A DNA stretch of 64,000 nucleotides from Argopecten irradians (taxonomy: Eukaryota; Mollusca; Bivalvia; Pectinida; Pectinidae), in contig NC_091142.1 of the NCBI RefSeq assembly GCF_041381155.1, positions 28,657,963-28,721,962 of the forward strand. Reading direction: 5' to 3'. Below, piece by piece: positions 6,639 to 42,176 of the stretch (position 1 is its first letter; each line of letters begins with the position of its first letter). Made by a program: the position numbers and the translations under genes. A model generated the notes under the pieces. That model did no database searches. It was not told the origin of the DNA and was given only the letters and a program-made list of their open reading frames with translations.

Positions 6639-8340
6639 ATGTCGTACAAAGATGCAAGAATTTACGTCGGAAACCTGCCACCAGACATAAGGGAACGCGA
6701 CATCGAAGATCTATTTACAAAATTTGGAAGAATCATCTACGTCGACCTTAAGAACCGAAGAGGACCACCGTTTGCTTTCGTTGAATTTTCCGATCCAAGG
6801 TTGAGCATTGAAATTGATTGAATTTCATTCGAATTATGATATCATAATATTTGAGATCGTTCTATATTTAAAGATCGATATAAATATTGTATTTTCAAAT
6901 TCATTGTGACCTGTTTAACTTTTCTATTTTGGATGTTCGTGCAAAATTATTTTGTAAAACCAGGAAAGGGGGGGGGGGGCTGGTTGTCCACAGAAAGAAT
7001 AGATGTAGTACGTATTTTATTAACTTGGTAAAAGATATGCCATCTGTCTAACTTGGTGAATTGCATGCCATATGTCTGGGCAACGAATCATAGGCGTTAT
7101 TGAATCTGAAAAGTATTTTTGAGTATCTATGAAGTGAACAACTGGACTGCATGCATTGATATAGACATCTGTTATTATCTTGTGATATAAACAATATTAC
7201 CTATACTTACAGAGATGCTGAGGATGCAGTGCACGCACGAAATGGGTATGGTTATGATGGCTACAATCTCAGAGTAGAGTTTCCCAGAGGAAGTGGAGGA
7301 TACCGAATGGGAGGTGGTGGTGGTGGTGGTGGTGGTCGATCTGGCGGTATGGGAGGAGGCAGAGGAAACTTTGGACAGAGCCGGTTTTCTGCTTCACGGA
7401 GATCAGAATACAGAGTGTTAGTTTCAGGTAAATAGCTTCAAAAGGAGTGTTGACTTTTAAATGAAATCCTGCATTTTACCCAGACAAATTATTGTCAAGA
7501 TTATTATTTTATGTTTGCTATTTAAGGGTAAACTATTTTGTCTTTTCAAACAGGATTACCACCAACAGGAAGCTGGCAAGATTTGAAGGACCACATGCGT
7601 GAAGCTGGGGACGTTTGTTATGCTGATGTTTACAAGGATGGTACAGGAGTAGTGGAGTATCTACGCCATGATGATATGAAATATGCTGTCAGGAAACTGG
7701 ATGACACCAAATTTAGATCACATGAGGTTAACAGTCCTTTAAACACAGTTTCAGATTTTTTAAACAGCTGATCTTGTCTGGTCAGATGAAAATTCAGCCT
7801 CATGTTAATTACCAGATATGATGAGCCCTCTTGTTTAGTTATTTAAGGAAGATAGATCCCTTGTTTCATTTTAATTAGTATAAACTGATATTTGCCGTTA
7901 TGGATAAGACATTTTAAGTTGACTTGGTGTCTGTACATTTCAATTTAATGCAAGAATCTCTTTACCTCTGAATACAAACTTATATGATATTATGAAAGTT
8001 GCTTATGATGAAAGGTTATGTTCATTTGCTCAATATTCTCATTATGTTGGACAACTAAAATTTATTGTCCGAGAGTCACTAAAGGAAATTATCATTTGGC
8101 ATTTTATCTAAGGGATACTTCACTCAGCAGCTTGTAGACTCTTGTTGCTTAAGATTAGAAATGTATAAATTATTTTGACACTATATGCTGCAAAGATCAA
8201 GATCATTCCATGATCTGCTTTTAACATTTCAGGGAGAAACATCGTATGTACGTGTCAAGGAAGACAAAGGAGGTCGATCTCGTAGTCGAAGCCCAAGAGG
8301 ATCTTCTCCACGCTATGATCGTTCACGATCACGGTCATAG
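6639..8340 (+). CDS. SRSF1: SR splicing factor, SRSF1/SRSF9 family (gene A)
   Basis: Four exons: 6639-6799, 7213-7427, 7554-7726 and 8233-8340, all with GT/AG borders; together 657 nt, 218 aa. Residues 6-80 are RRM1, with RNP2 IYVGNL (8-13) and RNP1 [10 protein letters not shown] (41-50). Residues 81-112 are a glycine-rich linker. RRM2 follows with the invariant SWQDLKD heptapeptide (132-138) that marks the pseudo-RRM of SRSF1-like proteins and binds GGA in RNA. The tail is a short RS domain (about 197-218). SR proteins of this family act in the nucleus on exon definition and splice-site choice, and shuttle with mRNA. The short RS tail and total length are closer to vertebrate SRSF9 (221 aa) than SRSF1 (248 aa). 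The start ATG sits at the RRM1 N-terminus, as in the family. Exons 2 and 3 have the same length and phase as in gene B, showing common descent. The duplication breakpoint at 8027 lies in intron 3, and intron 1 holds a 12-G run. SRSF1 versus SRSF9 orthology is not settled here. Confidence 0.93.
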
Positions 8341-11104
8341 GTGTCCAACAATGTTCAGCGAAGTAGGAAATATTTCTTTCCAGAACAAAAATTAAATGGT
8401 TTCTGACATTGTATATTTATTTATATAGTCTAACAAAACTATTCTAAGAATGAAAACAAAATCATTATATGTTGCCTTTCAAGAGAGATACAATTTTGCA
8501 ACGTTTTTTTGTTCTTGAGAAGTGACTGTCACTCTTAATATTACCTTAATACAGCTGTTTGTGTTGCTGTTCAACTGCCGTCGTCATCAGCCTGGGCCAT
8601 CCATCTGCGAGGGTTTCAACCCTTATCCGGGAACTTTCTCCGGATGTTGGGTCAGTAGGCCTAGGGGTGATCAGTCCCTACTCTTCGACGGTTGGCTCCC
8701 AGCTACTGTCGCCTCTGCGTATCCACAACCAGCAGGATGCTCTCTCTGCTTCCTTTCCCAACTCTTTAATGGCAGTCTTCCTTTTAAAAATTTTAAAATT
8801 CTTACACCTGAGTATTAAAAAATACGCTTGTAGTGCATTAAAATGGAATATACTAGAACCAGTTTAATTCCATATCATGCACATACTTTTTAGAGAAATT
8901 CTATCCAAAATGGTTTGGAAGTACAAAAGTTTACAAAACTGGTGAAATGTATAACTCATTTCATTTCTTATGTTTCAGGAGCTGGTATTTGATTGGATTC
9001 CATTGGTGCGAAACCAGGAAAAATGTGTGAAGTATGTGACACTCTAAACAAAAAGCAGCTCCTGGTGTTTCTTCATGAGGGAAGTGAATTTCGCTCATTG
9101 CCATGATGGACATAACACACTTTTCACTTTCTTACTTATGGAGGGCTTCAGATTATGGTATGAACTTAGACCAAGAATGAACTATTTAAGTACTACAATC
9201 TTATAATTTTCTGTTAAAAGGATTCCTGGAACTAAAGCATGCATCTTGGTTTATTTTAAAGCATACAAATTAGCTATGTTGATAACAAATATTGCTAGGG
9301 TAATATGATTTTATGGCAGCTTCTAGCTGGTTTCTGGAGGAATATTCTTTTTTCTGAAATTTGATTTTCATTTAATTTTTAAATTTTGTCATCGATTTTT
9401 GCATCTAAGGTTAGTTATCAAGGACTAAATGAGTATATGTGTCACTTTGTTGTTAATTCATCCAATGTCAATTTTAACACTTTCAACCCCGAAACTTATA
9501 AAGGACTGGTCTAGTCTTTGATTTAGAAGAGTCTAAATGTGTCTACAGGGATGAATGTGTAAAAGTAAAAAAAGTTGACTTATATCTTTGCATTGCTGAT
9601 GGGTAGAGAAATAACAGAAAATCATAAAGCATTTTGGAAACTTTTCCCCCTAGTAATGTATTTGTAATTTTTGATGTAAACAATAATTGTTGGGCTAGAT
9701 GAATGCATTGAATGAATTGTAATGGTTGAAGATAGGAAATTTTGTGCTATACATACAAAAGTGTATATGGTTCAACTCCTCCACCCCTCTTCAGGGGTTA
9801 CTGAATTAATTCCAACCCTGACTTGTATCCCGATAATGTTTCACTTTAAAAACAGAAGTAACACAAGTTAGAATAATCATTATGATTATGAACATGTTTG
9901 TATATATTGCGCAAATATCCATGGACACAAGAAATTAAAGTGATGACTTTTATTTTAATCAAATTGCTATTTGAAAAAAGGTTTTTTAAAGATTATTTCC
10001 CTTGTAATGTTTCATATTTGAACAAATAAGGAAGGGTGGGGGTGTCATGCATTTTCTGTTTGAATAAATCTTTGTGTATCTTAATCTGGTATAATATGTG
10101 TAGTAACTATATAACCAAGTGTAGCATAATCTAATGTGATTTTGCTTTTGTACTTTTGTGTTATTTAGACTGATTGAAATGTCTAATGTTGTGAATAATG
10201 TATTCTAAAGAATCATGTATAATCTTTTCCATTATTTTCAACCATACTTTCGAAAAATATGGAATCCTTTCGTAGGAGTTAATAGACTTTTAAGTTGTTT
10301 ATTAAAACACTTTACTAATACTGGTTTCACTTACATTTGATTGTAGATAAAAAGTGTTTTGAGAATGTTTCAAGTCCAAATTAATTCAAAATTAATTTAC
10401 CTCTGGCACACATACCTAGAAACTTGGCATCATCTTTCATTTCATTGTATGATGTGGCAACTGCCAAGTAATATTGATTGTATATGTTAGACTTTAGTAC
10501 TATTTAAAAAAAAAAGTGTTTTGGTTTATCATTTTAGTTTGTAAACTTCAAGAATGTAGACCTACTTGTTTTTAAGAAATAGATTATATATACCAATTAA
10601 TGTTACACAAAAGAGAATAAGGGATATTTTGAAGAATGTAATAATTGAGTAAATAATGGGGTATGTTATTACATTTCTTCAAGAATTCTTAATTTTACAT
10701 CTGATCATTTTCATTTCAATTTATTCAATTTTTTCTTCATTGAAAATGAATGTAGTTCCATTTCGCAAATATGTATAAAAATTCAATTAATTTTAGCAAA
10801 AAGCTTTTCCAGTAAAATATTCATCCAAGAAGCGTTCTCCCTAATTTACTCAATAGTAACGACTAGTATGTGGAGTTTCTTTTGTTGAACTTTCCTCTAG
10901 TATGATAGATTATTTTCCCTCTTGTTGGATATATTTTACTGGAATAGCTGTAATGTATATGCATGATGATAATGGTTCAAACATCATTCATTTCATGCTC
11001 ATAAATGTATATACTATTAAAAGGATTAATGTCTTATTTCTTTTTCTTTGTTTGATTCAAAGGTCTAAGCTTGTAATACTCGGGAAGGAGTGAGTTCGCT
11101 CAGA
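8341..11104 (+). other. Downstream region / probable 3' UTR of gene A
   Basis: No credible CDS. The sequence continues from the gene A stop without a close AATAAA; the first clear one is at 10063-10068, so a long 3' UTR is possible. A strong acceptor-like site (TTATGTTTCAG at about 8980) could allow splicing within the UTR, as happens in other SR genes. At 8520-8780 there is a markedly GC-richer patch that is open in two frames (98 and 102 codons) without recognisable domains; it is unassigned. The whole stretch recurs at 33733-36532. Confidence 0.4.
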
Positions 11105-12330
11105 GGGAGCATTATCTGATAATGGTATTGGATTCAATCTTTGGAAAACTACCCTCCCCATTTTCCACTTGGATAGAATCTTTCGGAACCTCTCCTTGGG
11201 ATTGCGGGGTAGAGCTTTGTTGGATCAACATAGCGGAAATATGTCCTATAAGGATAAAATCTTTTGGATCATCTGTAGGATTCTGTCTTGGATATACCAC
11301 TTTTCGGAAAAAAATATCAATTTTCTTTGGAAAAGAGGGAAAATCACTTATCTTTGGAAAAGAGGGAAATTTTCAGGATTCAACTCTTGTCAAAATTTGA
11401 GAAAAGGGAGAGCTCTAGGGAACTAGGAGAGGGAAAGATGAAAACCAGGAAACAGGAGAAAATCATATTTTTCTTTACGATTTCTGTCTTCTCTTTGCTT
11501 TACACATGTCAAAGAAAATTTGAAAAAAAAATGGAATTTGTAAGAAGTTAAATATTGCAAAATCAATTAAAAAATATTTTGAAATATTTTAAAGTTATAT
11601 TTTGGAATAACAACTTTTGATAGGTAGCATTTGAATACTGGGTAAAAAGTAATATTTTAAGATGGCAAAGGAAAATATGACTGCTTCTGGACCCTTCTGA
11701 GTTCGGAAAACCACCCCATGGAAAACTGAATCCAATATCAAATAATAGGATCTTGAGGAATTTGGATGATAGGATTGCTATAGGATCAGGCTGTGTACCG
11801 GCGGGGACTACTCGAGTACACAGTAGGATTGCTATAGGATTAGAGATGGAGGAAAGGATCTGGGGACCCTTTTCTCTTGGATCACAACGGGATCTTATTG
11901 GATCACTGATGGATCTTTGGATATGTCTTAGAGAATTGCTAGGATCATCAATACTTTGGGATTTGTGATCAAAACATCTAGGATAGAATAGCTATGATCT
12001 TCTAAAATCTTTCTGTAAAGAAAAAAACCGTCTTGTTGGATCGAGGACGGATCTTTAGGATTTCTCTCAAGAATTACTAGGATCAGAAATAGCTATCATC
12101 ACTTTTTGGATTCCATTATATCTTGGGAAAATCTAGCTTAAATTTGTAAGGATTTTTTGAGAAATCTTGCTCTAGAAATGCCTTTCAGGTCTCCGAATGC
12201 TACCCACTTTTGAATTTCATGTAGGATTTTGCTTGGATCTCTGGAAGCATTTATTTTGGAGATTCTGGAAAAGCTTTTCAATCCTGCTTAGGTCTTCAGA
12301 TGTCTTTGAAAGTGAGCTTCTTAGGAACAT
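11105..12330 (+). other. GGA-rich tract downstream of gene A (block 1)
   Basis: By hand count about 64 GGA trinucleotides occur on the + strand in ~1.2 kb, many inside TAGGAT, TTGGATC or TTTGGAAAA contexts, against fewer than ten TCC. The strand is the sense strand of gene A. There is no exact period, so it is not a simple satellite. The open frames across it (92, 85 and 71 aa) are by-products of the biased composition. See the related tract on the minus strand at 17861-18490. Confidence 0.55.
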
Positions 12331-12506
12331 CAACAGATTTTGATTGATTGACCTCCTAGTAAATGAAATGCTTTAATTTCCTTCTTGGCCATAAAGGATT
12401 ACTTTAGAAGACATGAGGATCTTCAAAACATTTCATTCAGGACCAGGTACACGAATCTTGAAATTATGATCTGATGCATCAGCTGGTGATAACTTAAATA
12501 ATGCTA

Positions 12507-12724
12507 AATATATAAAAGAGCGAGTCCAACACAGTAGTTCCTTCCAGTAAGCTGATTTTTTAATCAGATAGTTGTTGACATGTTTCGACTCTAGGCGAGT
12601 CGTCCCCAAAACCCCTGTTTTGAGGACGACTCGCCTAGAGTCAAAACATGTCAACAACTATCTGATTAAGAAATCAGCTTACTGGAAGGAACTACCGTGT
12701 TAGACTTGCTCTTTTATATATTTA
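12507..12724. mobile_element. Hairpin MITE, ~95-bp arms (block 1)
   Basis: Near-perfect inverted repeat: left arm ATATATAAAAGAGCGAGTCC... to ...AGGCGAGTCGTCC; the right arm mirrors it (GGACGACTCGCCT...). The centre is at about 12610. Arms are ~95-100 bp, giving a stem of about 200 nt. Flanking TA-rich bases make the duplication ambiguous. The same element is at 37937-38154, so it predates the block duplication. Confidence 0.8.
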
Positions 12725-14550
12725 CCTGGATTACAAGTGAGGCCTCTGTATTCTTTTGAATCCACGGCCGGTTCCATCAAGAATTTCTACATTTTCCATA
12801 ACCCAGGAAGTTGCGCCTCCACCCCCCTGTAGTGATTAAATAATGCTAGTGTTAATGGATTTACTGCAAGGTTATTGAGCTTCATGGTTTATAATATCTC
12901 TAGTCTAACTTGCTTAATCGAGGCACCTTAGAAACAATACCGAGTAATTATTGTATTCTTTCGATAGCAAACAATTAGAAATTAGATAATTGGCTCTTTT
13001 GTCAACCTGGCATAAGATTAGCAATCGTTTCTGCATGGTTTGGATAGTGTTATATTATTGAATCATTTAAATCAGTGAAGAATTATTTTCTAACATATCG
13101 AAAAGAGTCTTAATATGTTAGACCAGGGCATATGTAAACTCTAAGAATTGCACATGATACTTCAAATTTCGAATTTCTATAATTTTATGTGCAAAAATAG
13201 TTTCAAAATATTTAATTTTTCTTAGGTCATGTATTCCAAGTTAAAACCTTTTTCACAGCTAGACCCTAGATAATGATAAAAATTACATTCCAATGTCTGT
13301 AAAGACAAGCATTTTATCAATTGCATCGTATATGAAAATAAAAGACTGATACCAAAAGAAGTTGACTGTTCTTGATGATGTTAAACAAAATATATAGTAA
13401 ATTAAATCCCTATTATTGCTCTCTCTTATAAATACTAAAAGAATCGTTTGAAATCAAATTAAAATGTTCCCCTTCAGGGTTAGCCTCCAGTTGCATTGTT
13501 CCATATGCATTTTCTAACTGATCAGTATCACGAACATAAGATTCTCCATAGGAAATGTTGAAATTAAGAAAAAAACTAACTTCCCTCAACTTCTGTAATG
13601 CTTTTCTAAAGTTAAGGAATTTCCTTAAGCTATGGAATGTTTGTGAAACTGGCCTCTGATGTATCTTAAGACATTAACAATTTAAAAGTTTGTTATAAAT
13701 TCCCCTTGGTTCATAGTTGTGCTGATTGCATATAAGGGCAAGTTAAAGGGCTGCCCGGTATACAGTCATCTTGAATTTCAATTGGGGTGATAGCTTTCAT
13801 ATAGTTTCCCTGTAAGTGGCAAACCTAGTTACTGGTACATTGTATTGCTCAAAGCGACAACTTTTGTTAGCTTACCTGACCAAAAGGCCAAGTACTTGTA
13901 TCCTGTAAGCTTATGGCACGGTGCAGAAATTATTTCTCAATACTAAGAAGCCCAGAGACATTCTACACCTATTGGGTACATGTTGGGAGGGCATCTAATT
14001 TTATTCAAATGAATTACCTTGACCTTTTATAGGGATATTATATTATAAATAAAAAAAAGTGAACACCTTTGACCAAGAACCGATATTTGGCTTGTGATAT
14101 GCCAGGCTTCCAAGTTGGTTTAAATGAATGAGTTTGACTGTCTTTTATAGTAAAATCTCCTTATTACTATAGTAAAACTATAATCAGGTAGCAAGCGAGC
14201 AATTTGGACCCTTGTTCAATAATCATGAACTTTTCTGTATCAAGAATTTGTCCAAGGGTTTCTGACATCACTTGGTCCAGTGACCTTGTTATTGGATGCA
14301 ATAATCAGAGGAAGAGAGATTATAAATTAGGCCTGAAGGATATGCTTTCCTTCCGTCTTCATTCAAAATTAAAGCAAGTTGGAGATTTATGAGATGAAAT
14401 AAATGACATTGAGTTTATGCCTTCGTTTGGTATTGTATTAAATCTCCTCTTTGGCCATCAATATAACTTTTCCCAAGTTAATATTGGTTTTAAGTTTGTT
14501 TTGGAAAGGTAGTGGACCTTTAAATATTTCCAATATAGTAAGCAGTTTTA
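12725..14550. other. Non-coding stretch between genes A and B (block 1)
   Basis: AT-rich, no splice-linked frames and no recognisable protein. Small open frames such as 14204-14392 recur in block 2 simply because the DNA is duplicated. Block 2 (38155-39970) differs by a few substitutions and short indels. I see no repeat family of note. Confidence 0.5.
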
Positions 14551-15001
14551 GGTCATTTGACCTATATAATCATGTTTGCCTGTCGTGCATAAACTTTCCA
14601 CATTTTGAGCTTAAGTTCCTCCTACCAGTGCAATTTGGCTAAAACTTGCCTGAAATGATCCTGACATGGTACCAAGTGTTATTTTTTGGGTCGATTCGAA
14701 ATCCAGGATGGCCTCCACAGCTGGCATCTGGAAAACATATTTTGAACTTCTGAAGTTCTACTAGTGCGATTTGATCCTGACATGGTCCCGACAAAGTGTT
14801 ATTTTTCGGGTTGATATACGAAATCCAAGATGGCCTCCACAGCTGCCATCTTGAAAACACATTTTGAACTTCTTCTCAAGTTCTACCAGTGCGATTAGAT
14901 CCTGACATGGTCCCGACAAAGTGTTATTTTTATTTTGAAATCCAAGATGGCCTCCATGACACCATATCTTACTTTTCTATGACTGTTGCCATGGCCTCTT
15001 G
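14551..15001 (+). mobile_element. Helentron-like (pearl/HINE-type) element, short copy, block 1
   Basis: It starts after TA with GGTCATTTGACC, matching the start of the intact element at 48710 (GGTCATCTGACC), and shares its next stretch (ATCATGTTT..CGTCGTGC). The body has about three units of ~120 bp around CCTGACATGGT and AAATCCAAGATGGCCTCCAC. It ends ..CCTCTTG, like the other two family members, but the subterminal repeat and hairpin are deleted here and kept in block 2 (40298-40330). It is non-coding. Confidence 0.6.
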
Positions 15002-15127
15002 TTTCTACCATTTGTTATGGCCTTTAAAACCCACAATGGTTGGTTGATTTTGCTTCGGGCTCCCTTGTATTTTGTGTGCATGGTGAAGGAAACCAAAATG
15101 TTCCTTTTTCGTCATGGCCTATTTTTA

Positions 15128-16767
15128 GCCCACCATCATTAGATGGTGGGCTATTCAAATCGCTTTTTGTCCGTGGTCCGTGGTCCGTCCGTTCCGTCCG
15201 TCCGTCCTTCCGTCCGTTAACATTTCTTGTTACCGCTATTTCTCGGAAAGGGCTGAAGGGATCTTTCTCAAATTTCATATGTAGGTTCCCCTAGGGCCCT
15301 AGTTGTGCATATTGCATTTTAGGACCGATCGGTTAACAAGATGGCCGCCAGGCCGCCATCTTGGATTTTGATAGTTAAAGTTTGTTACCGCTATTTCTCA
15401 GAAAGTGCTGAAGGGATCTCTCTCAAATTTCACATGTAGGTTCCCCTAGGGCCCTAGTAGTGCATATTGCATTTTGGAACGGATCGGTTAACAAGATGGC
15501 CGCCAGGCCGCCATCTTGGATTTTGGTAGTTAAAGTTTGTTACCGCTATTTCTCAGAAAGTACTGAAGGGATCTCTCTCAAATTTCACATGTAGGTTGCC
15601 CTAGGACCCTAGTTGTGCATATTGCATTTTGGGACGGATCGGTTAACAAGATGGCCGCCAGGCCGCCATCTTGGATTTTGGTAGTTAAAGTTTGTTACCG
15701 CTATTTCTCAGAAAGTACTGAAGGGATCTCTCTCAAATTTCACATGTAGGTTGCCCTAGGGCCCTAGGTGTGCATATTGCATTTTGGGACGGATCGGTTA
15801 ACAAGATGGCCGCCAGGCCGCCATCTTGGATTTTGGTAGTTAAAGTGTGTTACCGCTATTTCTCAGAAAGTACTGAAGGGATCTCTCTCAAATTTCACAT
15901 GTAGGTTGCCCTAGGGCCCTTGTTGTGCATATTTTATTTTGGGACCAATCGGTCAACAAGATGGCCACCAGGCCGCCATCTTTGATTTTGATAGTTAAAA
16001 GTTGTTACTGCTATTTCTCAGAAAGTACTGAAGGGATCTCTCTCAAAAAATTTCACATGTAGGTTTCCCTAGGGCCCTAGTTGTGCATATTGCATTTTGG
16101 GACCGAACGATCAACAAGATGGCCGCCAGGCAGCCATCTTGGATTTTGATATTTAAAGTTTGTTACCGCTATTTCTCAGAAAGTACTGAAGTTATCTCTC
16201 TCAAATTTCACATGTAGATTCCCCTAGGGCCCTAGTTGTGCATATTGCATTTTGGGACGGATCGGTCAACAAGATGGCCACCAGGCCGCCATCTTGGATT
16301 TTGATAGTGTAAGTTTGTTACCGCTATTTCTCAGAAAATACTGAAGGGATATGTTTCAAATTTCATGTGCTGGTTCCCTTTGGTCCCTAGTTATGCATGA
16401 TACATTTTGGGACCGATCGGTCAACAAGATGGCCGACAGGCCACCATTTTGAATTTTGATAATTGAAGTTTGTTAACGCTATTTCTCAGAAAGTACTAAA
16501 GTGATCTGTCTCAAATTTTATATGTAGGTTTTCCTAGGATCTGCATATTGCATTTTGGGACCGTTCGGTCAACAAGATGGCCAACAGGTTTTTGACAATT
16601 GAAGTTTGTTAGTGTTATATATCTCAGAAAGTACTGAAAAGATCTTTCTCAAATGTCATATATAGTAATATGTAGTAAAAATTTGAAAGCAGAGAAAAGA
16701 TCCCTCTTTCTATTGTCAGACGTAGATCATTCTTTGGTGGGCGCCAAGATCCCTCTGGGATCTCTTG
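15128..16767 (+). mobile_element. Helentron-like element with ~155-bp satellite core
   Basis: Present only in block 1; block 2 has an empty site (GGCCTATTTTATAGTGC). It is flanked by TA on both sides. It starts with a hairpin (GCCCACCATCA / TGATGGTGGGC type, 15128-15151). An inverted copy of the first 8 bases (TGGTGGGC, 16735-16742) lies just inside a 3'-terminal hairpin (AGATCCC..GGGATCT, 16747-16763), and the element ends CTTG. Between lie about ten tandem units of 155 bp (starts near 15231, 15386, 15541, 15696, 15851) containing TACCGCTATTTCTC and AAGATGGCCGCCAGGCCGCC. Asymmetric terminal repeats, a 3' hairpin and core satellites are the hallmarks of non-autonomous Helentrons such as mollusc pearl elements. 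Confidence 0.75.
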
Positions 16768-17860
16768 TATAGTGCTACAGTGTATCTGGCTGAAACATAC
16801 CCCTTCTGGTCTAATGCTGACAATAAGCCACATCAAGGCCTCCTAAATACAACAAAAACAGAAACTCCCACAAAATATTTATTCTTTACAACTGCAAAGC
16901 TAATGATAAAACAATGAAGTTCATGATTGATGCAAATGGACATTGTTAAACAATCAATTTAAAAGATGCATGAAAAATGCTTTGACATTGAAAATGTTTT
17001 ACATTAATTGTATGATGAATTTCACAAACCATGCATTGTTAAAAACTAAAATTTAAAACAAAAACAAGGAAAATTGGGATTAAAATATTGCATGAAATGT
17101 TTTCCAGTGGAATTCATAGATTATTCTCCACAGTTTCTCACCAAATCCTTCCTTCCATCCATCCACAAATCCTTATCTTCTTATGCTGATGTAGTGTACC
17201 GGTACATGTATGTACATCTCACATCTGTGTCCAAACTTTGCTACTCGATAGCTCTTGGTCATTGTAAAAGATATGCTATAAGTATCTCTATAATATGAAC
17301 ATTAAAACAAAATAAAAACTGTTAGTATCAACTTTAAAGCTCGGACAAAACTGAAATAACAAATAATCAAAGCAATGCTGTTCGACACCAATGTATGCAA
17401 ATAAAACTTTTTTTATTATCCTAAAATACCTTCCATTCTACTGTATTGAAAACAAAACAATTTGTATGGAAAAAAAAACAGACTAAGGGGCGATAACTCG
17501 CTACAGGTTGCCATTAATACTGCTGTACAATTTTTTTCTGCCAATATAAGTCAGATTGGATGAAAGAAAAAGTTTTCTTCAAAATTTTCTAAGAGTAAAG
17601 CATTTGACATTTGAATTCTAAAAAAAAATTACTATAGCACAAAACCCCCAATTATACAAATTGCCTTCCTTCCTAAAACCAAATTGTAGACAAGTTTTCT
17701 ATTGAGGGTATTCCCATTAAAAAATACAAGCATTTCTAATGACCATCCCTTTGTTATACAACTTATTTCATGGGGACATTACATAACCATCAAGGACTCC
17801 CTCCTATCTTCTACCTTTACTTTTACATCCTATAAATCAACAAAAGGTCAAAATAATTTG
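16768..17860. other. Non-coding stretch
   Basis: AT-rich DNA shared with 40450-41546. The 74-aa frame at 17074-17298 is unlike any family I know and lacks splice context. No structured element seen. Confidence 0.5.
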
Positions 17861-18490
17861 TAGAATTGTCCAACTCCATTCGGTCCATGCATATATCCAT
17901 GATTATCCATTAACCTTTGAAAAAACATTTCCTCCAAACTCCATTCGGTCCGAATCTGTACACATTTCCAATTTTTTGGAACATCAACGTTTTTTTTTAA
18001 AACAAAATCCTCCAAACTCCATTCGGTCCTGTCCCTCCCATATCCATTAACCGGTTATTTCAAACTCTATCAATTTGGTACAAAACAAAATAATAATTTC
18101 TCAAAAGGGCAGTCCAAATTCCAAATTTTCCAATATTTAAAGTAATCCTACATCATTCCTCCAATCTCCATTCGGTCCTATTATATCCATTTCTTTCCAA
18201 ATAAGGGAGAAAAATCCTTATATTTTCCTCCATCGTCATTCGGTCCTAATTCCAAAACAATTCCAAAATATTTCCATCCTTATTTTATTTTTCCATTATC
18301 TCCATTCGGTCCTAAGGTTATATCCATTACATTTCCAATTTTCCATACTTTTCCAAACTACTTCCAATTTTTAAGGCAAAAATCTTAAAACTTTAATATC
18401 CTCCCATCTCCATTCGGTCCAAAATCCATCTTTTATCCAACTTTCCTATCATAAATCCATCCAATCCAATAAATATCCCATTCCTTCCAA
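17861..18490 (-). other. GGA-rich tract with repeated GGACCGAATGGA motif, downstream of gene B (block 1)
   Basis: On the minus strand (sense for gene B) I count about 55 GGA in ~630 nt against two TCC, where chance at this base composition would give about five. Within it seven copies of a 12-mer, plus-strand TCCATTCGGTCC, lie at 17875, 17940, 18018, 18167, 18236 (one base shorter), 18301 and 18409, spaced 65-150 bp with unrelated sequence between. It starts about 1.7 kb past the gene B stop. It is conserved in block 2 at 41547-42176. Confidence 0.7.
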
Positions 18491-20161
18491 CTTCAAAACC
18501 TTAATTGTTGAAAAATACAAAGAGATACATTTTAATAAGTGAAACAAAATAATGACAAAGCGATTGTTGAAGTAATATGCACAAATAATTACATTACAAA
18601 TTTCATCAATCTATCTTTTATCTTTAATATTATTAATATGTATCATTTTGTCACCTTTCCATCTTGATAAAATAGCAAATTAATTCCGTCTCATTTTAGG
18701 ATGTTCAATGTTTTTATTTTATAGTACTGAACACATATATATATATATAGCTGAATTTTCGTTGATATCATAATTTCTTCCTATTATAAACAGCAGCGAT
18801 ATAAAATGACATTAGATTCTTATCTCCCTTGATTAGGAAAGATAATCAAATAATTGATGTAATTTCAAGCAAATCAAACCTTAATTACATACATTGTCAT
18901 TCATATCCAGCATTTCTGTTCAACAAGCTTTGACTTAATTGACAATCACCAGATCATTCCCCAACAATTACCAACATTTAACTCCCGACACTTTACAAAA
19001 GTAACAAATGAAAACTTCTGTTTTTAATAAAACCTGAATGGGTTGATTTACTTTGAAAGAAAACTACTATTAATCCTTTATGTCCAGATTTCTTTTCATA
19101 AATGATAATAATCAATAATAATGTTTATTTCAAAATTTGTTACTTTCAGAAATGAGTTTCAAATACATTCTCACTCATAAAGGATACCTCATCCCTGAAA
19201 TCCTGAAAATAACTTTTGAAATTGCTATAAACCCGATGACACATCAGTGAAATTAAAATTACATAAAGGAAATAACTTGTCTGAACACAACAAAAAAATC
19301 AAACTAATGATACATGAAATAATTTTGCATACTAAAATCACCTCCAATGTAATGGATGTCTGGAGTAAAATGTCACTGCCTGCCTCCATCTTATCCCATT
19401 GGAAGCGACTGACTCCAGGATCCCTAACCACAATGGACGACCTTTGGCCATGTGATCGACAGCTGGACTGTTAACTCATGACTGTATAAGAAATATTAAT
19501 AGTGAAATATCGTACAAATTCTTTTTGTATTAAATTAGGAATTTCATAAGGCACTCCTCCCAGGCAAATATTTTCTGAACAATGGCTTTGTTTTTAATGA
19601 AGTTGAAAATTTTATCTAGAAATACAATTACTCTAAGGATAAACATTTAGGAAAAGTCGAAGAATTTTGTGTTTCCCCTTGTGACAGCATGCAGAACAGA
19701 GCACTTTATATGATAAATTTGATATTATTGTTATCAATAAAGCCTTGCATATCAATAACATAAGCTTAAATATATTCCGTCAATGGCTTTCAAAATAAAC
19801 AGAAACTTCTTCCCATATTTGATTTTTTATGAGCCAAATGTATATGAATGTAAGTTGGATGGGGTGTCTACAGAAAGACTTTTGAAATATAGGCCAATTG
19901 TATTGATTGCATCATTATAAGACATTTAGCAAGAGACTACACTTTTTGGATATGAATGGTGGTGATGAAATCTTCATTGACATTCAAGAAATGAGTATAT
20001 ACAAACTTAATTAAAATCAACAAAAAATTGATAGTCTTTATGAATTACAACAGTATTTCGATACAATGATTCTGTTTTATTACCGACAAAAAAATGGTTT
20101 TCATGACGTTACAAAATAACCACACCAACTTAATGTGGAAATGATACAGATGACAGACCAT
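18491..20161. other. Downstream region / possible 3' UTR of gene B
   Basis: No protein-coding signal. A minus-strand AATAAA lies at 20076-20081, about 80 nt past the gene B stop, so a short 3' UTR is possible; a longer transcript would be needed to include the GGA tract. The 94-aa minus frame in block 2 (42833-43117) is shorter in block 1 because of an indel, which argues against its being a gene. Confidence 0.45.
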
Positions 20162-23100
20162 TCAGGAACGTGACCGTGATCGTCTCCTTCGCTGTTGTAC
20201 AGAGGAATAATCTGGTGATCCTCTGCTCGGTGATGACCTCCTTCTGCGAGGACTGCGGCTTAAACTGCGACTGCGGCTTCGTGAATATCGATTGCGACTG
20301 CTGCTGCCACCGCTACTGTAATTCTCTTTCACACGAATGTAGGACACTTCACCCTGAAACATCAGAACACAAAACATCCTAAAAATTAAAAAAAAAGTCA
20401 ATGTTTTGTTCTCTCAAAGTACTTTTCGCAGCAGAAATAAAGTTAAACAAATAGAAAATCTTTCAATATACTGTAATTGATGAGGAAAATTACGGAAATT
20501 AGATAAGTTCAATAATTTGATATCTCTTGAATCTTTAGGTGAGTGGCGTATCAAATTATTTAACATGTACATAAATAATAAATTTCATATTACATAGCAA
20601 TGAGTGTAAGGTTTTATTTTGCATTGCATATCTTTAGTATTTATGGAAATGAAGACAAAATTTCGTTTTTTATTAACTTTTGTACAGCTTGAATATTATA
20701 TGATATTACATTCAGTAACTATTCATTATAAAAGAATGATAAAAATATTGTTCCATCTTGCATGACAATTGTGCAACATCATATATGTGATGTCACAAGT
20801 GTTATTACATGTGAACATGTATGGCTTATAGTATTTATGACAATAATATTTTTGACAATCACATGGCTGTCAGAAAGGCCAATTATGTTGATAACAAAAA
20901 GTGTTTCAACAGTCTTTGAGTGTGGAGCATGTTAACAGAATTTAAATATCTCTGGTTTTATTTTTACCTCATGAGACCTAAACTTTGAGTCATCAAGGTT
21001 TTGTACAGCATACTGCATATCTTCCTTGCGTAGGAACTCAACCACACCAGTACCATCCTTGTATGTGTCTGCATAACACACATCTCCTGCTTCACGCATA
21101 TGGTCCTTCAAATCCTGCCAGCTGCCAGAGCCAGGAAGTCCTGAAAATATTGAATCAAAATGTCAATATCAAAGCTCCGCACTGCTATATAGATATCATA
21201 ACAAAATTTAAATGGTCCTTTCCATTGCATGATGGGAAATAATTGATTAGTGCATATGACCCAAAATTAATCATCTCAAGGCTGATATTTGCGTATCAAA
21301 AATTTACCATAGCACTTTTTAATAATTGACACATATTTTTTTTTTTAAATACCATGCTCAACAATTTTTGTAAGATTTTTTAAGGTGACTGAGTCCAGAA
21401 CACTAATTTTCAACTTTTGATGAGCATGTGTACAAAAAATATAAAGGGTTCTCAAAATTTTGATGAATCTAGGACTCATCTAGACAAGTTCCGTAAATCA
21501 TTGGATCACGATGCTCTAATACCTGAAACAAGGACTCTATACTCTGATCTTCTGGAGGGTGGGCCTCGACCACCACCACCCCCACCACCACCACCACCTC
21601 CACCATACATTCCTCTTCCACCACCACCTCCTCCTCCATAACTTGGGGGACCCCTTGCTCCTCGCGGGAACTCCACTCTTAGAGTATATCCATCGTAATT
21701 GTAGCCATCCCTTTTTCTTACAGCATCTTCGGCATCTCTGTTGGATAATCAAATTTGTTGAATTATGAACAAGTGACTTCTTAAAAGCATTTAAATTTTG
21801 TTTGTCAATCATGTCTATCCTCTTTCTTTATATATATATATTAAGTCTCATTTGCAAGTGATTGAACTCTGTGAGTAATATAAACTGCACGATGTGGCAT
21901 TTTACCTGGGGTTTTTTTTTATATGAAAATATAACTGAAACAAAAATGTAACCATCATGCGGAGGGGCATTGCCATTAACCAAGGTCGGGGGAAAGCACT
22001 AACTTGCATATTATAGGCAAACTATACTCCCATAACATTAGAGTCGACTGGTCAGCCGTTTTTTTTATCGGACGTTACTTTGCTGACTGATGACTCTCAT
22101 TTCCGAAGGCCTATTTCTTTGATGCAGCTTCCGTCGTCGAATGAAGTCAGAAGGAATATATTTATAGCTCGAACATAGATAACATTGATGTGTACTTACT
22201 ACAGTTTAGGTATTAATTATAAAATCCTTATTATCAAGTAAAAACCATAACTTGGGGCCTCATAAAATAGTATTTTAGCGGATTGGATATGATGGAATCC
22301 TTTCCGTAACATTTTGACCTGGTTTTAAATATGGCGGCTGGTTACTACAAAAAAACCGAAATGTGAATTAAGCGGGCAGAATACAAGTAAAAGTAAAGGC
22401 AGATCAGGCGTTTTGGGGACTATGCAATTCGTTTTTTTCTATTTACTGGCCGGATTGCTATTAACATGAAGTTTTGTCTGGGTCATGGAAGTTTACGTTA
22501 GAAGATGTAAATATTTGTTTTAGATGGATTTTACGGCTTATTTTGTCAAAGTACTTGTTAATCTATGAAAAAGAGGTAGGTATTTGACATTGATGACGAT
22601 TTAAATATGATTTAAACGTTTTTTATTGTCACAATCCAAACTTTGAAAATGTTACCCTCAGCATCGGGTAAATGGCCTATCGGAAGTTAGAGGTTAGACA
22701 CGACGTAATGTTCCAAAAGTGTCTCGTCGTGCTATACCTCTAACATTGTTGGAGTAAGGATAACCAAACAAAGGGTACTAGAGAAAGTACTCCAACAATG
22801 TTAGAGGTATAGCACGACGAGATAAAAACAATAAAAAAACGTTTAAATCATATTTAAATCGTTATCAATGTCAAATACCTACCTCTTTTTCATAAATCAA
22901 CAAGGTTTTTGACAAAATCAGCCGTAAAATCCATCAAAAACAAATATTTACATCTCCTAACGTAACCTTTCATGACCCAGACAAAACTTCATGATGAAAG
23001 CGATCCGGCCGGTAAATAGAAAAAACGAATTGCAAAGTCCCCAAAACGCTTAATTTGCCTTTACTTTTACTTGCATTCTGCCCGCTTGAATTCACATTCC

Positions 23101-24376
23101 GTTTTTTGTAGTAACCAGTCGCCATATTTAAAACTAGGTCAAAATGTTACGGAAGGGATTCATCAATTCTAATCCGCTATAATACTATTTTATGAGGCCT
23201 CAAGTTATGGTTTTCCTATATAAATGGGATAATTAATACCTAAACTGTAAGTACACGTCAATGTAATCACTGTTAGAGCTATAAATATTGATATTATTGC
23301 ACTTTTCATTCCGCCTTCATTTGACGTCGGAAGCTGCATCAAAGAAATAGGCCTTCGGAAATGAGAGTCGACAGTCAGCAAAATAATGTCTGATAAAAAA
23401 AACGGCTGACCAGTCGACTCTCATGTTATGGGAGTAGGTTATCCTCTACCAGAATAATCCTAGCTTTTAAATATGATTGAACGTTTTATATCAATTAATT
23501 GTCACAATCCAAACTTTGAAAATGTTAACCTCAGCATCGGATAAATGTCACTAAATAATATATGTGCGTATGGAGAGAAAAATATCTCCACTAGCGATGT
23601 GTGCCAGTATAGTAAACACTGCAGTTGGATTATTTCTGGAATAGATCCTTACAAGAGGTAGGTCAACCTGACTTGATTTTCGAGAATAAAGTTTAGAAGG
23701 CTCGAGTAGGGATTCTGACGAGAGACATCTATCAAACGTCCGACTATAAAAGAGTCTCGAGACGGAATCTCAATAGAGATTAATTAGAGTATTGTATTGT
23801 ATCATCTCCACATTAAATACTTTCTAACGTGCAAATGAATCTCATTTTTATATATTGTGTACTGTTTCATAGTAAATAAATGCTACTCGAGAAAAAAATT
23901 TGTGAAAAGTTCATAATGAATCATCTTTATCGATTTTTAGTAACAAATCCATACTCCAATAGGGGTAAAATACTCCAGTTTGCGTAAAATAGATTAATAC
24001 GTAAGTTAGTGTTACCCGACCTGTAACAATCCACCTAGTAACATTTTACATTAAATCAATATCGTTAATGAATACTAGACTACTGGGTCAGCGTCTAACG
24101 AAGTACGCTCACTAGTCGTGCGTTTCTTTGAATGCAGAATGACATAAACCACTTATTATGCCTATCGAAGAAAAAAAATCGATCACAGATACAACACGTG
24201 CGTACCTCGGGTCTTCAAAACTCTACAAAGGCAAATGGCGGTCCACGTCTATTTTTCAACTCAATATAACGAATATTTCCATATTTTGTAAATAAATCTT
24301 CTATATCTCTTTGTCTAACATCGGGTGGTAGATTTCCTACATATATTCTTGAATCAGAACTGCTTCTATAAGACAT
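20162..24376 (-). pseudogene. SRSF1: SRSF1-type SR protein gene B, block 1 copy with frameshift
   Basis: Four exons on the minus strand: 24206-24376, 21523-21737, 20968-21140 and 20162-20353. They carry the same RRM1, glycine linker, SWQDLKD RRM2 and RS tail as the intact block 2 copy. Exon 1 has one extra A in a run at 24217-24220 (four A on the plus strand against three in block 2). This turns the codons after VEF into TGA, ending the protein after about 53 residues, inside RNP1's strand. It also has Ser instead of Ala at residue 9 ([11 protein letters not shown]). Exons 2-4 remain open with intact splice sites. Either this copy is recently dead, or the extra base is a homopolymer sequencing error and the gene is functional. 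Intron 1 holds a 1.4-kb foldback element. It is transcribed head to head with the dynein light chain gene. Confidence 0.85.
22025..23436. mobile_element. Large foldback element, ~650-730-bp arms
   Basis: The ends are inverted copies starting TACTCCCATAACAT and continuing AGAGTCGACTGGTCAGCCGT; the arms run to a centre near 22757-22786 (GTACTCCAACAATGTTAGAG and its mirror). The left arm carries ~80 bp (around 22640-22720) missing from the right arm. A segment of the left arm (AAACTTTGAAAATGTTA, CAGCATCGG) is repeated in direct orientation just outside the right arm at 23470-23550. It sits in gene B intron 1, with no coding capacity. Block 2 retains only the left arm. Confidence 0.8.
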
Positions 24377-24606
24377 TTTGAGTGCAAAACTGATATGGTT
24401 TCCTGGATTCTGAAGTCAATGGCTGCTTGGGTCTGTGAAAAGCTTGATTTGTAGGACACGAAACCAAGCGTATGAACGAATTTTCCGACGAGGTGACTTC
24501 TGGGATGATATACGCTGCTAAAGATTTAACAGTATTTTAGCCAATAAACGAAAAGCAAGCAACCAATGAAATATCGTGGTTCAGCGTCCTTGTGGATACG
24601 TTGCTA
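24377..24606. promoter_or_regulatory. Shared divergent promoter, gene B (-) and DYNLL (+), block 1
   Basis: This ~230-bp interval separates the gene B start codon from the candidate first exon of the dynein light chain gene. Two CCAAT boxes lie at 24541-24545 and 24563-24567 on the plus strand; there is no TATA box at a convincing distance. The interval is almost unchanged in block 2 (47736-47965). The divergent arrangement matches what I recall for human SRSF9/DYNLL1. Transcription starts are not visible from sequence. Confidence 0.55.
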
Positions 24607-24714
24607 ATGTCAGCACCATCGGAAAGCATCATTCGCAGAACCGAAGCCCGCGAAGCACCTGGAGTCGTCAACATCACACGGAGACGAAGTTCACTAAAGA
24701 AATATCATAGAAAG
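24607..24714 (+). other. Candidate 5' UTR exon of the dynein light chain gene (block 1)
   Basis: It ends in a strong donor, ATAGAAAG|GTATGT at 24714/24715. The dynein light chain ATG at 27176 follows a strong acceptor (CCCCTTTATTTTCCAG|CACA, exon from 27172), so a 2.46-kb 5' UTR intron is the simplest reading. The first base of this exon is unknown. If transcription starts at or before 24607, an ATG there opens a 36-codon frame that is out of frame with the DYNLL start after splicing, a possible upstream ORF. Confidence 0.4.
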
Positions 24715-24984
24715 GTATGTTTAAATGTTAATGTGAAATTTACAATAGTTTGCCTTTTCAAAAAGATGCTAAAGAACCCTAAATCTAGGAATAATCTGCC
24801 GAAGTCCTCATGAGAGTGAAAATATGACGTGAAGCATAAGGACTTGTTTTAAAATCATTTGTAATTATAATATGTAGACTTTCATTTTAATATCCACATG
24901 TTTAACTGATTTAAGCGCCAACTCGACCAAACTTCAGCGCCTGAGCGCCTTGCAAAAAAGTCAGTCCCCACTGGCACGGAACAT

Positions 24985-26280
24985 TTTCTTTACATTTTTT
25001 CTTTGAATTTTCCTGATCTCATCTAGGTATATAGGGGAAAGTAGTCAAATTTCGGACACCTTAATAGTAAAACCTTTGTATGCTTGAAACCTATCCACAT
25101 ACCCCCATAACTGACGTATGAGCAGAAAGAGAATTTTCTTTTCTTGCATTTATCACTTGAAACTTGACACAAATACTAAATTTGTTTTATACCAGGCCAA
25201 AGTAATCAGCAATGTATAGCTGTTCGAATTTCAGACAGGGGTGTTCATAATTCGGACATAGGGTGTTCAAATTTCGGACAGCAATTAAAAACCAATTAAA
25301 TTAGGATGATTTTCATATAAAACATGTATATTGTTACATAATCATGAATTTCATGTTAGCAAATGTATGTGCATTGAAATAAAAAGTTTGTTGAGTTTGT
25401 TTAGTTAATGTAATATATATTTTTTGTAACTTTCATCATATTTACCCAGATTTTGGGCTCAATGTGTAAGTACCCTTAAAGGCTTTAGCTGATAAACATG
25501 TTCCCTTGTTTACTTGCACTTTTATTTCTAGGATATAACTGGTTACCCTAGTTACTACTTCTACTTTTTTATTAATTTTATAACTAAGGAAAGCTCTGAA
25601 TTACTAAAATCCATTCAGAACTTTACAAATGTTACGAAAATCGAACAATATTTAAGTATTTATCGATTATTTTGGACTGTTCCAAATAAGGAAATTTTCA
25701 TATTAGTAATGGGTGTTCAAATTTCGGACACCAAACTTTATATAGGTAAAGTGATGGTTAATTCCCACTGTATTGTTTATTTTTTACTCAAAACAATAAA
25801 AGGATGTGTTTAAACAAACAAAAATTTAAAAAGTTTAATGAACACACTGAATAAGACATGTTTGACATGGAGTTCCATATTGCGTCATTTGACCAGTTCA
25901 TTTTTGTATATTCAACCGCAGGAAAGGTCGCAGTCACATATTCATATTCAAACTTACCATACAAAATATAATGCTCACACATCTGTTCTTCAATCTAGTT
26001 AATTTCCAATTTGAAAGTAAAGCATAGGTCAGTTTCAATGACTTTTTATCAAATATCTGGACTATTTTATGAGTTTTAAAGTATTTTCTAATTACTGTCC
26101 GAAATTTGAATCCGTCCGAAATTTGACTACTTTCCCCTAGTATATTTATGTCGATATGCCGATAACAAAACAGAATTGTCTGCGCTTTCAGCTCATTATA
26201 TTTGCCTAATATTGTCCAATATTTCATTTTCAAATGTTTTTACCGCCGAAACTTTGTGACGTCATTTCCCCTTTTCCCAG
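24985..26280. mobile_element. Older MITE split by a TA-flanked MITE (block 1)
   Basis: The left piece (ACATTTTTTCTTTGAATTTT, CTGATCTCATCTA) and right piece (CTTTCAGCTCATTATATTTG, TTTGTGACGTCATTT) match the arm of the long-TIR element at 26415-26911. The inserted element at 25034-26137 separates them. The uninterrupted version is at about 48340-48530 in block 2. Confidence 0.55.
25034..26137. mobile_element. TA-flanked MITE with 24-bp terminal inverted repeats
   Basis: Perfect 24-bp terminal inverted repeats (25034-25057 and 26114-26137), starting GGGGAAAGTAGTCAAATTTC. Both sides are flanked by TA, as expected for Tc1/mariner-type target sites. The 1,104 bp contain no transposase frame. Internal copies of TTCAAATTTCGGACA near 25269 and 25717 repeat part of the terminal repeat, suggesting several transposase-binding sites. 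Absent from block 2. Confidence 0.8.
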
Positions 26281-26414: not shown

Positions 26415-26911
26415 ATGTACAGTAACGTGCCAAAAGTCTTCGTAATTTTTATTTTTCCCTATATATTCTTTGTAATTTTACATTTTTTCTTTGATTTTTT
26501 TCTGATCTCATCTATTGGCAGATTTTAACCAATTTTGGCATACTTGTAGAAAATTATCTACACTTTCAGCTCATAATATTTGTACAATTTTCCGATGTTT
26601 TGTTTTCAAAATATATATATTTTTTTGTGCACCACATCAACTTTTGACGTCATTTTCTTCTTTATTCATACCAAAATGGCAACGATAAAGTTTTGCGTGG
26701 TTATGAAATACGGTTTTCTCAAAAAGTGCATACAGGAAAATTATGTTAATATTATGAGCTGAAAGTGTAGATATTTTTCTACAAGTATGCCAAATTTGAT
26801 TAAAATCCGCGGCTAGATGAGATCAGGAAAAATCTAAGAAAAAATGTAAAAATACATAGAATATATAGGGAAAAATAAAAATTACGAAGATTTTGGCACA
26901 CGGCTGTACAT
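26415..26911. mobile_element. Long-TIR element (~165-bp arms) in DYNLL 5' intron, block 1
   Basis: Arms start ATGTACAG and include TGCCAAAA, CTTCGTAATTTTTATTTTTC, CTGATCTCATCTA and CTACACTTTCAGCTCATAAT, mirrored at 26740-26911. The centre contains TGACGTCA at 26645. The 60-aa frame at 26580-26762 is a product of the element. In block 2 the left arm is broken by a Helentron-like insertion. Confidence 0.75.
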
Positions 26912-27142: not shown

Positions 27143-27445
<303 letters not shown>

Positions 27446-29395: not shown

Positions 29396-30044
29396 TTTCA
29401 TTTCAAAATATTTTATTAACAAATACAAGATATACATGAATCATAGAGAAAGATAATATATTAATGTAATGCCAAATGGATTGGACAACAGGCAAAGCCT
29501 ATATAGGTCCTCTCCAGAAATCCGGTTTATTTAACTAATAAATAGATATAAATAGTGTTGTATCAGTAGAAATGAAAAGAAAAAAGAATATTAGGAGCAT
29601 ACCCAAGCGGGCCATAGAAAAGAAAATAAATATTTACAACAGATAGACAAATAAGTAAATATATTTTAAAATGAATAAGTAATAAATAGGCAATATTATT
29701 TATAGAAAACAAATTAATTAATTTATACATATCACATCCACACACACATATACACACCCTCTCATAATGGCCTTCAATATATCAATACATGCATATATTT
29801 TAATATTTCTATAAAATCTATTTGTACAATTGAAATCTCTTAGTTTTTTTTATATAATTACTTGTATGAAGTAGTATCATTTCATTAATATCATTAGAAA
29901 AATCAATAGACCCATACAACAGAATTTCAATATTAACAAAACCCAAAAGATTAGAAATAGAGATTATGTGATGTCTAAAATCAGAAAAATGAGTACAATA
30001 AAAAAAATAATGTTCAGAATTTTCAGTTGGAGCACCACTTAAGC

Positions 30045-30190
30045 ATTGATGTCACTATTTTTTAATTTTATCGGGGTATGAAAAAAAAATTGTTTGCAAA
30101 CTGTGTGAATCCGCGTAGCGGATTCTCACATAAGTTTGCAAACAATTTTTTTTTCATAACCCGATAAAATTAAAAAATAGTGACATCAAT
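30045..30190. mobile_element. Hairpin MITE nested in the LINE
   Basis: Near-perfect inverted repeat: ATTGATGTCACTATTTTTTA..TTGTTTGCAAAC, a ~30-base loop holding GAATCCGCGTAGCGGATTC (itself palindromic), then the mirror arm. It interrupts the 3' half of the LINE coding sequence. Confidence 0.8.
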
Positions 30191-30239
30191 ACTTATAATT
30201 AATTTTATACTCTATTTGATAAAATGAAGTATGTTTAAA

Positions 30240-36532: not shown

Positions 36533-37758
36533 GGGAGCATTATCTGATAATGGTATTGGATTCAATCTTTGGAAAACTACCCTCCCCATTTTCCACTTGG
36601 ATAGAATCTTTCGGAACCTCTCCTTGGGATTGCGGGGTAGAGCTTTGTTGGATCAACATAGCGGAAATATGTCCTATAAGGATAAAATCTTTTGGATCAT
36701 CTGTAGGATTCTGTCTTGGATATACCACTTTTCGGAAAAAAATATCAATTTTCTTTGGAAAAGAGGGAAAATCACTTATCTTTGGAAAAGAGGGAAATTT
36801 TCAGGATTCAACTCTTGTCAAAATTTGAGAAAAGGGAGAGCTCTAGGGAACTAGGAGAGGGAAAGATGAAAACCAGGAAACAGGAGAAAATCATATTTTT
36901 CTTTACGATTTCTGTCTTCTCTTTGCTTTACACATGTCAAAGAAAATTTGAAAAAAAAAAATGGAATTTGTAAGAAGTTAAATATTGCAAAATCAATTAA
37001 AAAATATTTTGAAATATTTTAAAGTTATATTTTGGAATAACAACTTTTGATAGGTAGCATTTGAATACTGGGTAAAAAGTAATATTTTAAGATGGCAAAG
37101 GAAAATATGACTGCTTCTGGACCCTTCTGAGTTCGGAAAACCACCCCATGGAAAACTGAATCCAATATCAAATAATAGGATCTTGAGGAATTTGGATGAT
37201 AGGATTGCTATAGGATCAGGCTGTGTACCGGCGGGGACTACTCGAGTACACAGTAGGATTGCTATAGGATTAGAGATGGAGGAAAGGATCTGGGGACCCT
37301 TTTCTCTTGGATCACAACGGGATCTTATTGGATCACTGATGGATCTTTGGATATGTCTTAGAGAATTGCTAGGATCATCAATACTTTGGGATTTGTGATC
37401 AAAACATCTAGGATAGAATAGCTATGATCTTCTAAAATCTTTCTGTAAAGAAAAAAACCGTCTTGTTGGATCGAGGACGGATCTTTAGGATTTCTCTCAA
37501 GAATTACTAGGATCAGAAATAGCTATCATCACTTTTTGGATTCCATTATATCTTGGGAAAATCTAGCTTAAATTTGTAAGGATTTTTTGAGAAATCTTGC
37601 TCTAGAAATGCCTTTCAGGTCTCCGAATGCTACCCACTTTTGAATTTCATGTAGGATTTTGCTTGGATCTCTGGAAGCATTTATTTTGGAGATTCTGGAA
37701 AAGCTTTTCAATCCTGCTTAGGTCTTCAGATGTCTTTGAAAGTGAGCTTCTTAGGAAC
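36533..37758 (+). other. GGA-rich tract downstream of orphan exon 4 (block 2)
   Basis: Copy of 11105-12330 with the same strand bias. It is almost unchanged in sequence, apart from length change in an A run near 36950. Confidence 0.55.
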
Positions 37759-37936
37759 ATCAACAGATTTTGATTGATTGACCTCCTAGTAAATGAAATG
37801 CTTTAATTTCCTTCTTGGCCATAAAGGATTACTTTAGAAGACATGAGGATCTTCAAAACATTTCATTCAGGACCAGGTACACGAATCTTGAAATTATGAT
37901 CTGATGCATCAGCTGGTGATAACTTAAATAATGCTA

Positions 37937-41546: not shown

Positions 41547-42176
41547 TAGAATTGTCCAACTCCATTCGGTCCATGCATATATCCATGATTATCCATTAAC
41601 CTTTGAAAAAACATTTCCTCCAAACTCCATTCGGTCCGAATCTGTATATATTTCCAATTTTTTGGAACATCAACGTTTTTTTTTTAAACAAAATCCTCCA
41701 AACTCCATTCGGTCCTGTCCCTCCCATATCCATTAACCGGTTATTTCAAACTCTATCAATTTGGTACAAAACAAAATAATAATTTCTCAAAAGGGCAGTC
41801 CAAATTCCAAATTTTCCAATATTTAAAGTAATCCTACATCATTCCTCCAATCTCCATTCGGTCCTATAATATCCATTTCTTTCCAAATAAGGGAGAAAAA
41901 TCCTTATATTTTCCTCCATCGTCATTCGGTCCTAATTCCAAAACAATTCCAAAATATTTCCATCCTTATTTATCTTTCCATTATCTCCATTCGGTCCTAA
42001 GGTTATATCCATTACATTTCCAATTTTCCATACTTTTCCAAACTACTTCCAATTTTTAAGGCAAAAATCTTAAAACTTTAATATCCTCCCATCTCCATTC
42101 GGTCCAAAATCCATCTTTTATCCAACTTTCCTATCATAAATCCATCCAATCCAATAAATATCCCATTCCTTCCAAC
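41547..42176 (-). other. GGA-rich tract with GGACCGAATGGA motifs, downstream of gene B (block 2)
   Basis: Counterpart of 17861-18490. The repeated plus-strand TCCATTCGGTCC motifs, including the shorter variant, are all retained, while bases between them show small changes (for example ACACA to ATATA after the second motif). Confidence 0.7.

Follow-up and report, generated by a model that had tools for sequence, protein, structure and literature searches.

Known autoregulation of SRSF1 and related genes

The original report of human SRSF1 autoregulation is reportedly that of Sun et al. 2010. Human SRSF1 and SRSF2 appear to be self-regulated via splicing of introns in their 3′ untranslated regions (3′UTRs) (PMC4529898, PMC6884704), and TDP-43 is described as having a 3′UTR binding region that spans a silent intron containing the first poly(A) site (PMC3950720). 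The present analysis was applied to a 64,000-nt stretch of the Argopecten irradians genome (contig NC_091142.1, positions 28,657,963 to 28,721,962; hereafter the window), which contained two SRSF1-type genes, A and B, each followed on its own sense strand by a GGA-rich tract (tracts A and B, respectively) that may serve as an RNA platform for autoregulation. Unproductive splicing events in SR genes are described as repeatedly replaced among paralogs (PMC4379411), so a different autoregulatory device at this locus would not be odd.

Genes A and B and the GGA tracts behind them

Genes A (plus strand) and B (minus strand) were convergent. Gene A (6639..8340) was composed of coding exons 6639-6799, 7213-7427, 7554-7726, and 8233-8340, with exon bounds placed from splice-site words; the joined exons were translated into a 218-aa product displaying two RRMs (RRM_1 match in Pfam), a glycine linker, and a short RS tail, and the best solved relative of this product was a human SRSF1 chain (E 5.3e-85). 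Gene B (20162..24376) had exons 24376-24206, 21737-21523, 21140-20968, and 20353-20162, and its best solved relative was also a human SRSF1 chain (E 2.2e-63, with exons 2-4 as the query and the first exon read by translation only); the first exon (24206-24376) carried a frameshift and an in-frame stop in this copy, versus an open frame in the second copy (see below). The attributes of an SRSF1-type protein (two RRMs, pseudo-RRM helix SWQDLKD, long glycine-rich linker, and RS tail) were found for both genes. SWQDLKD represents the residues by which human SRSF1 RRM2 reads GGA, as described in PMC7813835, and these residues were intact in both proteins; a preceding sequence-only reading of the window was thereby upheld in assigning both genes to the SRSF1 type and in taking GGA as the word recognized by human RRM2. 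A protein search of the genome, with a query that lacked the linker and tail, revealed no further SRSF1-type gene. The DNA pattern for WQDLKD gave 7 genome matches, versus 3 for a reversed control: three of the 7 were gene A, gene B, and the copy of gene B, and among the other four (one on contig C5, two on C8, and one on C15), the three on C5 and C8 were examined and were not RRMs.

Tract A (11105..12330, plus strand) started ~2.77 kb beyond the gene A stop (8340) and contained 64 GGA and 8 TCC, with the words TTGGATC, TAGGATY, and GGAAA and a GGA-poor part near 11461-11690; tract B (17861..18490, minus strand) started ~1.67 kb beyond the gene B end (20162) and contained 56 GGA and 2 TCC on the minus strand. 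Both were dense sense-strand clusters of the core binding word downstream of the gene's own stop codon, and of 130 GGA or TCC words in total, 120 were located on the strand of the respective gene. The sequence-only reading had counted about 64 GGA against fewer than ten TCC in tract A and about 55 against two in tract B, and had described the tracts as unlike in sequence and pointing in opposite directions, each following its gene; the present counts and orientations agreed with it. Across 250-bp bins, GGA counts rose from 0-6 to 9-17 at tract A and from 0-5 to 11-23 at tract B, and then returned to 0-6. Dinucleotide-preserving shuffles (2000 for each tract) yielded 39.0 ± 3.8 GGA (maximum 51) versus 64 observed in tract A, and 30.0 ± 3.1 (maximum 40) versus 56 observed in tract B; GG was followed by A in 64/90 cases in tract A and 56/62 in tract B.

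The GGA/TCC comparison was extended to a background of 20 loci of 10 kb chosen at random on contigs C1-C12 (200 kb, a small sample equal to 0.02% of the genome). These provided 1920 background windows (500 bp, step 100), of which 1373 were kept after exclusion of those that contained N or more than 100 bases of tandem repeat. None of these 1373 had at least 20 GGA or TCC (larger of the two counts: mean 6.25, 99th percentile 13, and maximum 18), while the best 500-bp windows of tracts B and A contained 46 and 30 GGA, respectively; a second background, 376 windows from 11 genome-search loci outside the window, peaked at 20 GGA or TCC per 500 bp. When extremes of all trinucleotides (AT-only excluded) were compared, the TCC window at 18001 in tract B (z 18.7) exceeded the background best (GGG, z 13.3). 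The tandem-repeat windows left out of the background reached 54 and 32 GGA or TCC per 500 bp, and GGA richness alone is not unique because these include real satellites. Relative to the non-tandem windows sampled, the tracts were outliers. One tandem array, a satellite of 56-bp period at L033:3540-9910 with one-strand GGA up to 54 per 500 bp, provided a non-SRSF1 control. Three other SR-type loci, labeled by inspection as SRSF3-like (L016), SRSF7-like (L017), and SRSF2-like (L023), had a maximum of 10-14 GGA or TCC per 500 bp in the ~1.5 kb flanking either side of the RRM match.

A genome search with the tracts, from which very common words were left out, matched each tract only to itself and its duplicate, and a dispersed repeat as the identity of the tracts was thus rejected. 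Coding exons were likewise rejected: four of the five open frames of tract A were scanned and had no Pfam match at E 0.001, and tract B had no frame of at least 90 aa. No known RNA family was detected at gathering score within 8000-25000.

Tract anatomy, duplication, and 3′ signals

Tract B harbored seven copies of the 13-mer GGACCGAATGGAG, all on the minus strand (18420-18408, 18312-18300, 18246-18234, 18178-18166, 18029-18017, 17951-17939, and 17886-17874; span 17874..18420). Six copies were exact and one had two changes; they were 65-149 nt apart and often followed by WTTGGAGGA. Changes from the consensus amounted to 2/91 in the 13-mer, versus 45/91 in the 13 bases before it and 31/91 in the 13 bases after it (Fisher 2e-14 upstream and 8e-9 downstream, with cells not fully independent). 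Such a pattern would be expected from a kept motif between drifting spacers, with the reservation that a 10-base core was used to choose the seven copies, and this tilts the comparison toward the motif. The exact 13-mer multiplicity of 6 was above the maximum of 4 in 1477 non-tandem background windows (630 bp). Of the 14 exact genome matches of GGACCGAATGGAG, twelve fell within tract B or its duplicate, and the other two in a duplicated pair of loci on contig C4; a 22-base form (up to 3 mismatches) had 8 matches within tract B and its duplicate and 2 elsewhere, versus 6 for the reversed control.

Tract A contained an internal repeat (11893-11953 versus 12031-12091, plus strand; 79% identical), whose two diverged members both retained GGA words. 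Diverged remnants of repeat units were present in both tracts, and neither was composed of head-to-tail copies at ~70% identity or more: Tandem Repeats Finder (TRF) placed no array over tract B and only a two-copy 27-bp repeat in tract A. GGA-to-GGA distances exceeded those of jittered positions at 11 nt in tract A and at 7, 9-11, 16, and 19 nt in tract B (28 distances tested per tract); the 9-nt spacing in tract B came partly from the 13-mer itself, which explained the spacing peaks only in part. Two-tier G-quadruplex starts (overlapping) numbered 11 in tract B, 3 in tract A, and 0 on the other strand, and are a by-product of GG density.

The tracts themselves had been correctly described in the sequence-only reading, which overlooked a ~25-kb direct duplication carrying both of them: 8027-33418 matched 33419-55863 in pieces, with 96-99% identity in the main pieces. 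Its divergence was patchy, with 2 substitutions plus 3 gaps over 8027-12750 and ~0.5-2% in the other aligned pieces, and the whole (8027-55863) may be either a genuine tandem duplication or a pair of haplotypes placed end to end in the assembly. The window contained two copies of each tract, of gene B, and of the final exon of gene A: the second copy of tract A (36533..37760, plus strand) lay behind the orphan last exon of gene A, and that of tract B (41547..42175, minus strand) followed the duplicate gene B, whose first exon (47735-47566) was open. Because each tract occurred once per copy of the duplicated block, the four tracts count as two independent cases at most. The tract B copies had 6 differences (5 substitutions and 1 deletion), which left GGA and 13-mer counts unaffected; the tract A duplicate is uninformative on constraint because all of 8027-12750, and not tract A alone, was nearly identical. 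The orphan SRSF1 end at 33419-36532, i.e., a second copy with the last exon and 3′ region of gene A only, arose because the duplication begins within the last intron of gene A.

The duplicated block also contained a dynein light chain gene (27143-27445; Pfam Dynein_light, E 1.1e-43). A similar but unrelated duplicate pair was that on C4 (L001 and L002, at ~19.97 and 19.98 Mb), ~9 kb apart and 98.9% identical over 1.88 kb, in which coding-looking, kelch-like sequence (by inspection) was followed by a short-unit array with GGAGGTAAGTAG. Minisatellites with 125-bp and 155-bp units occupied 14656..16665 between tracts A and B, a 220-bp inverted repeat (12505-12724; 92.7%) lay just past tract A, and further inverted repeats were located at 26415-26911 (77%) and 30040-30195 (90.6%).

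Acceptors were scored with a generic, self-written matrix, with the six acceptors of the gene A and B models as reference, and the scores are for that reason a hint only. Two candidate 3′ splice sites past the gene A stop (exon starts 8979 and 9795, plus strand) scored above all six: a score of at least 13.5, as at 9795, has an expectation of 0.09 per 4.36 kb, and the class of 8979 (at least 11.5) one of 1.7, both rates being raised by background satellites. These sites are possible acceptors of gene A 3′UTR introns, judging by their scores. The gene B 3′ region had no acceptor-like site above 7.2. Nearer poly(A) signals had been regarded as a weakness of a role in the 3′ transcript; signal words did precede each tract, but they also followed it, at 16 in 6.36 kb for A and 11 in 3.46 kb for B, and since this density was close to that of the window itself (2.5 per kb and strand), they carry no weight for or against such a role.

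Candidate explanations of the tracts

The best functional reading of the tracts, from sequence, is that of an RNA platform on the sense strand for autoregulation of SRSF1; we hold it at slightly below an even chance and about level with functionless decayed minisatellites. The following course is proposed: the primary transcript of each SRSF1 gene would extend through its tract, so that single-stranded GGA-word clusters would lie in its far 3′ part; when SRSF1 is abundant, several molecules would occupy one tract simultaneously via the pseudo-RRM; the bound SRSF1 would alter 3′ processing, by removal of a 3′UTR intron or by use of a distal over a proximal poly(A) site; and the resulting transcripts would be degraded or retained in the nucleus. 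By analogy, this would follow the logic described for human SRSF1 (3′UTR introns) and TDP-43 (3′UTR binding region). The platform is favoured by the outlier GGA density, the prevalence of GGA among GG words, the motif kept against its flanks in tract B, the GGA-retaining 79% repeat pair in tract A, the SWQDLKD helix plus glycine linker, and the strong acceptor-like site at 9795, and a role as RNA is suited because 7/7 13-mers and 120/130 GGA-or-TCC words were on the gene's own strand.

Several observations weighed against the platform. The bipartite site of human SRSF1 known from SELEX (C at -4 or +6 of GGA, or GGANGGA) was not recovered: among the 120 GGA, C was found at -4 in 14 and at +6 in 15 (~14 expected by composition), the C peaks being at -5 (24) and +2 (27), and GGANGGA occurred once in tract A and four times in tract B. 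Folding was ordinary, with z 0.81 for tract B and -0.61 for 11681-12330 (second half of tract A; 20 shuffles each). The best window of tract A (z 11.1, and 11.6 in its duplicate) was below the background best GGG window (z 13.3), and the two tracts, when compared, showed no clear homology beyond GGA words. Among the acceptor-like sites listed, the nearest before tract A (11063) scored 6.4, and the nearest before tract B (18780 and 18827, ~300 bases away) scored 5.1 and 6.0; the weaker real acceptors scored 4.2-9.8. Further points of this kind also supported the leading rival, in which local tandem duplication and slippage made minisatellites that degenerated below detection and stood beside SRSF1 genes by coincidence, an account given the same somewhat less than even chance: (i) tandem repeats made up 23% of the 200-kb sample, and 2/28 arrays of at least 300 bp reached 25 GGA or TCC per 500 bp; (ii) tract B carried remnants of a ~65-78-nt repeat, seen as unit-like spacing between several of its motifs; and (iii) triple GGATC clusters were common genome-wide (1167, versus 1714 for the reversed control), so that the word clusters of tract A were not special by this measure, and many of the 100 clusters listed, each of which was on C1 or C2, were regular arrays. 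Direct duplication alone, moreover, yields strand-skewed words. Uniform decay, on the other hand, should not have spared the 13-mer beside such altered flanks (a contrast that the 10-base core choice favours), nor is a 13-mer multiplicity above the background maximum accounted for. The chance of a sense GGA-rich array within 4 kb downstream is roughly 0.02 per gene (2 per 200 kb, half of them sense), and that for both genes ~4e-4 if independent or ~0.02 if one ancestral tract preceded the gene duplication; these figures are not decisive because many other coincidences could have struck a reader.

Two further explanations were considered improbable, to a similar degree. The tracts might be an RNA platform for a different reader of GGA: FMRP-like binding is to WGGA, CNBP-like to UGGAG, and LIN28-like to GGAG, and AGGA plus TGGA made up 47/64 GGA words in tract A and 51/56 in tract B, while the C spacing of human SRSF1 was lacking; this proposal leaves the position of both tracts behind SRSF1-type genes unexplained. 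Alternatively, a homotypic cluster of DNA-binding-protein sites (enhancer, insulator, or terminator) might be seen in seven copies of one 13-mer within ~550 bp and in the location of the tracts between two convergent genes. Double-stranded DNA sites usually occur in both orientations, whereas all 13-mers and nearly all GGA words of each tract were on one strand, and these strands followed the genes.

An extended form of the autoregulatory platform is speculative and, in our view, rather doubtful: both paralogs would carry, in extended 3′ transcripts, fast-evolving multivalent arrays in which their own binding word recurs about once per 11-19 nt, with turnover of sequence and retention of density and strand, acting as a self-sensor or sponge that sets the SRSF1 level by the number of bound copies. 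The arrays would either descend from the ancestor of the inverted gene pair or have arisen on two occasions.

Comparison with known systems

The titles and abstract openings found, mostly of open-access literature, contained no mention of GGA arrays located 3′ of an SRSF1 coding region. The described 3′UTR autoregulation of human SRSF1 (3′UTR introns leading to nonsense-mediated decay, alternative polyadenylation, and translational control) shares with this locus the protein family, an element (here proposed) past the stop codon, and an intact GGA-reading RRM2, but the present candidate elements are dense GGA arrays that start 2.8 and 1.7 kb beyond the stop codon. The TDP-43 binding region (TDPBR) in the TARDBP 3′UTR is similar in that sites bound by the protein itself are clustered around the first poly(A) site, within the 3′ region of its own gene (PMC3950720); it differs in protein and word, and the present locus has at most a candidate silent intron. 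Minisatellites of the same genome, such as the 56-bp-unit array at L033, are likewise one-strand local repeats of GGA-bearing units, while the tracts, apart from the short repeat in tract A, were not TRF arrays, and tract B kept its motif between diverged flanks.

Extreme conservation is a known feature of the autoregulatory elements of vertebrate SR genes. If the tracts work as proposed, this bivalve would display the opposite style, i.e., feedback set by how densely a word occurs, the sequence itself being little conserved, and such elements would be invisible to alignment-based searches; the density of a protein's own word in the 3′ regions of RNA-binding-protein genes would then offer a simple test for any genome.

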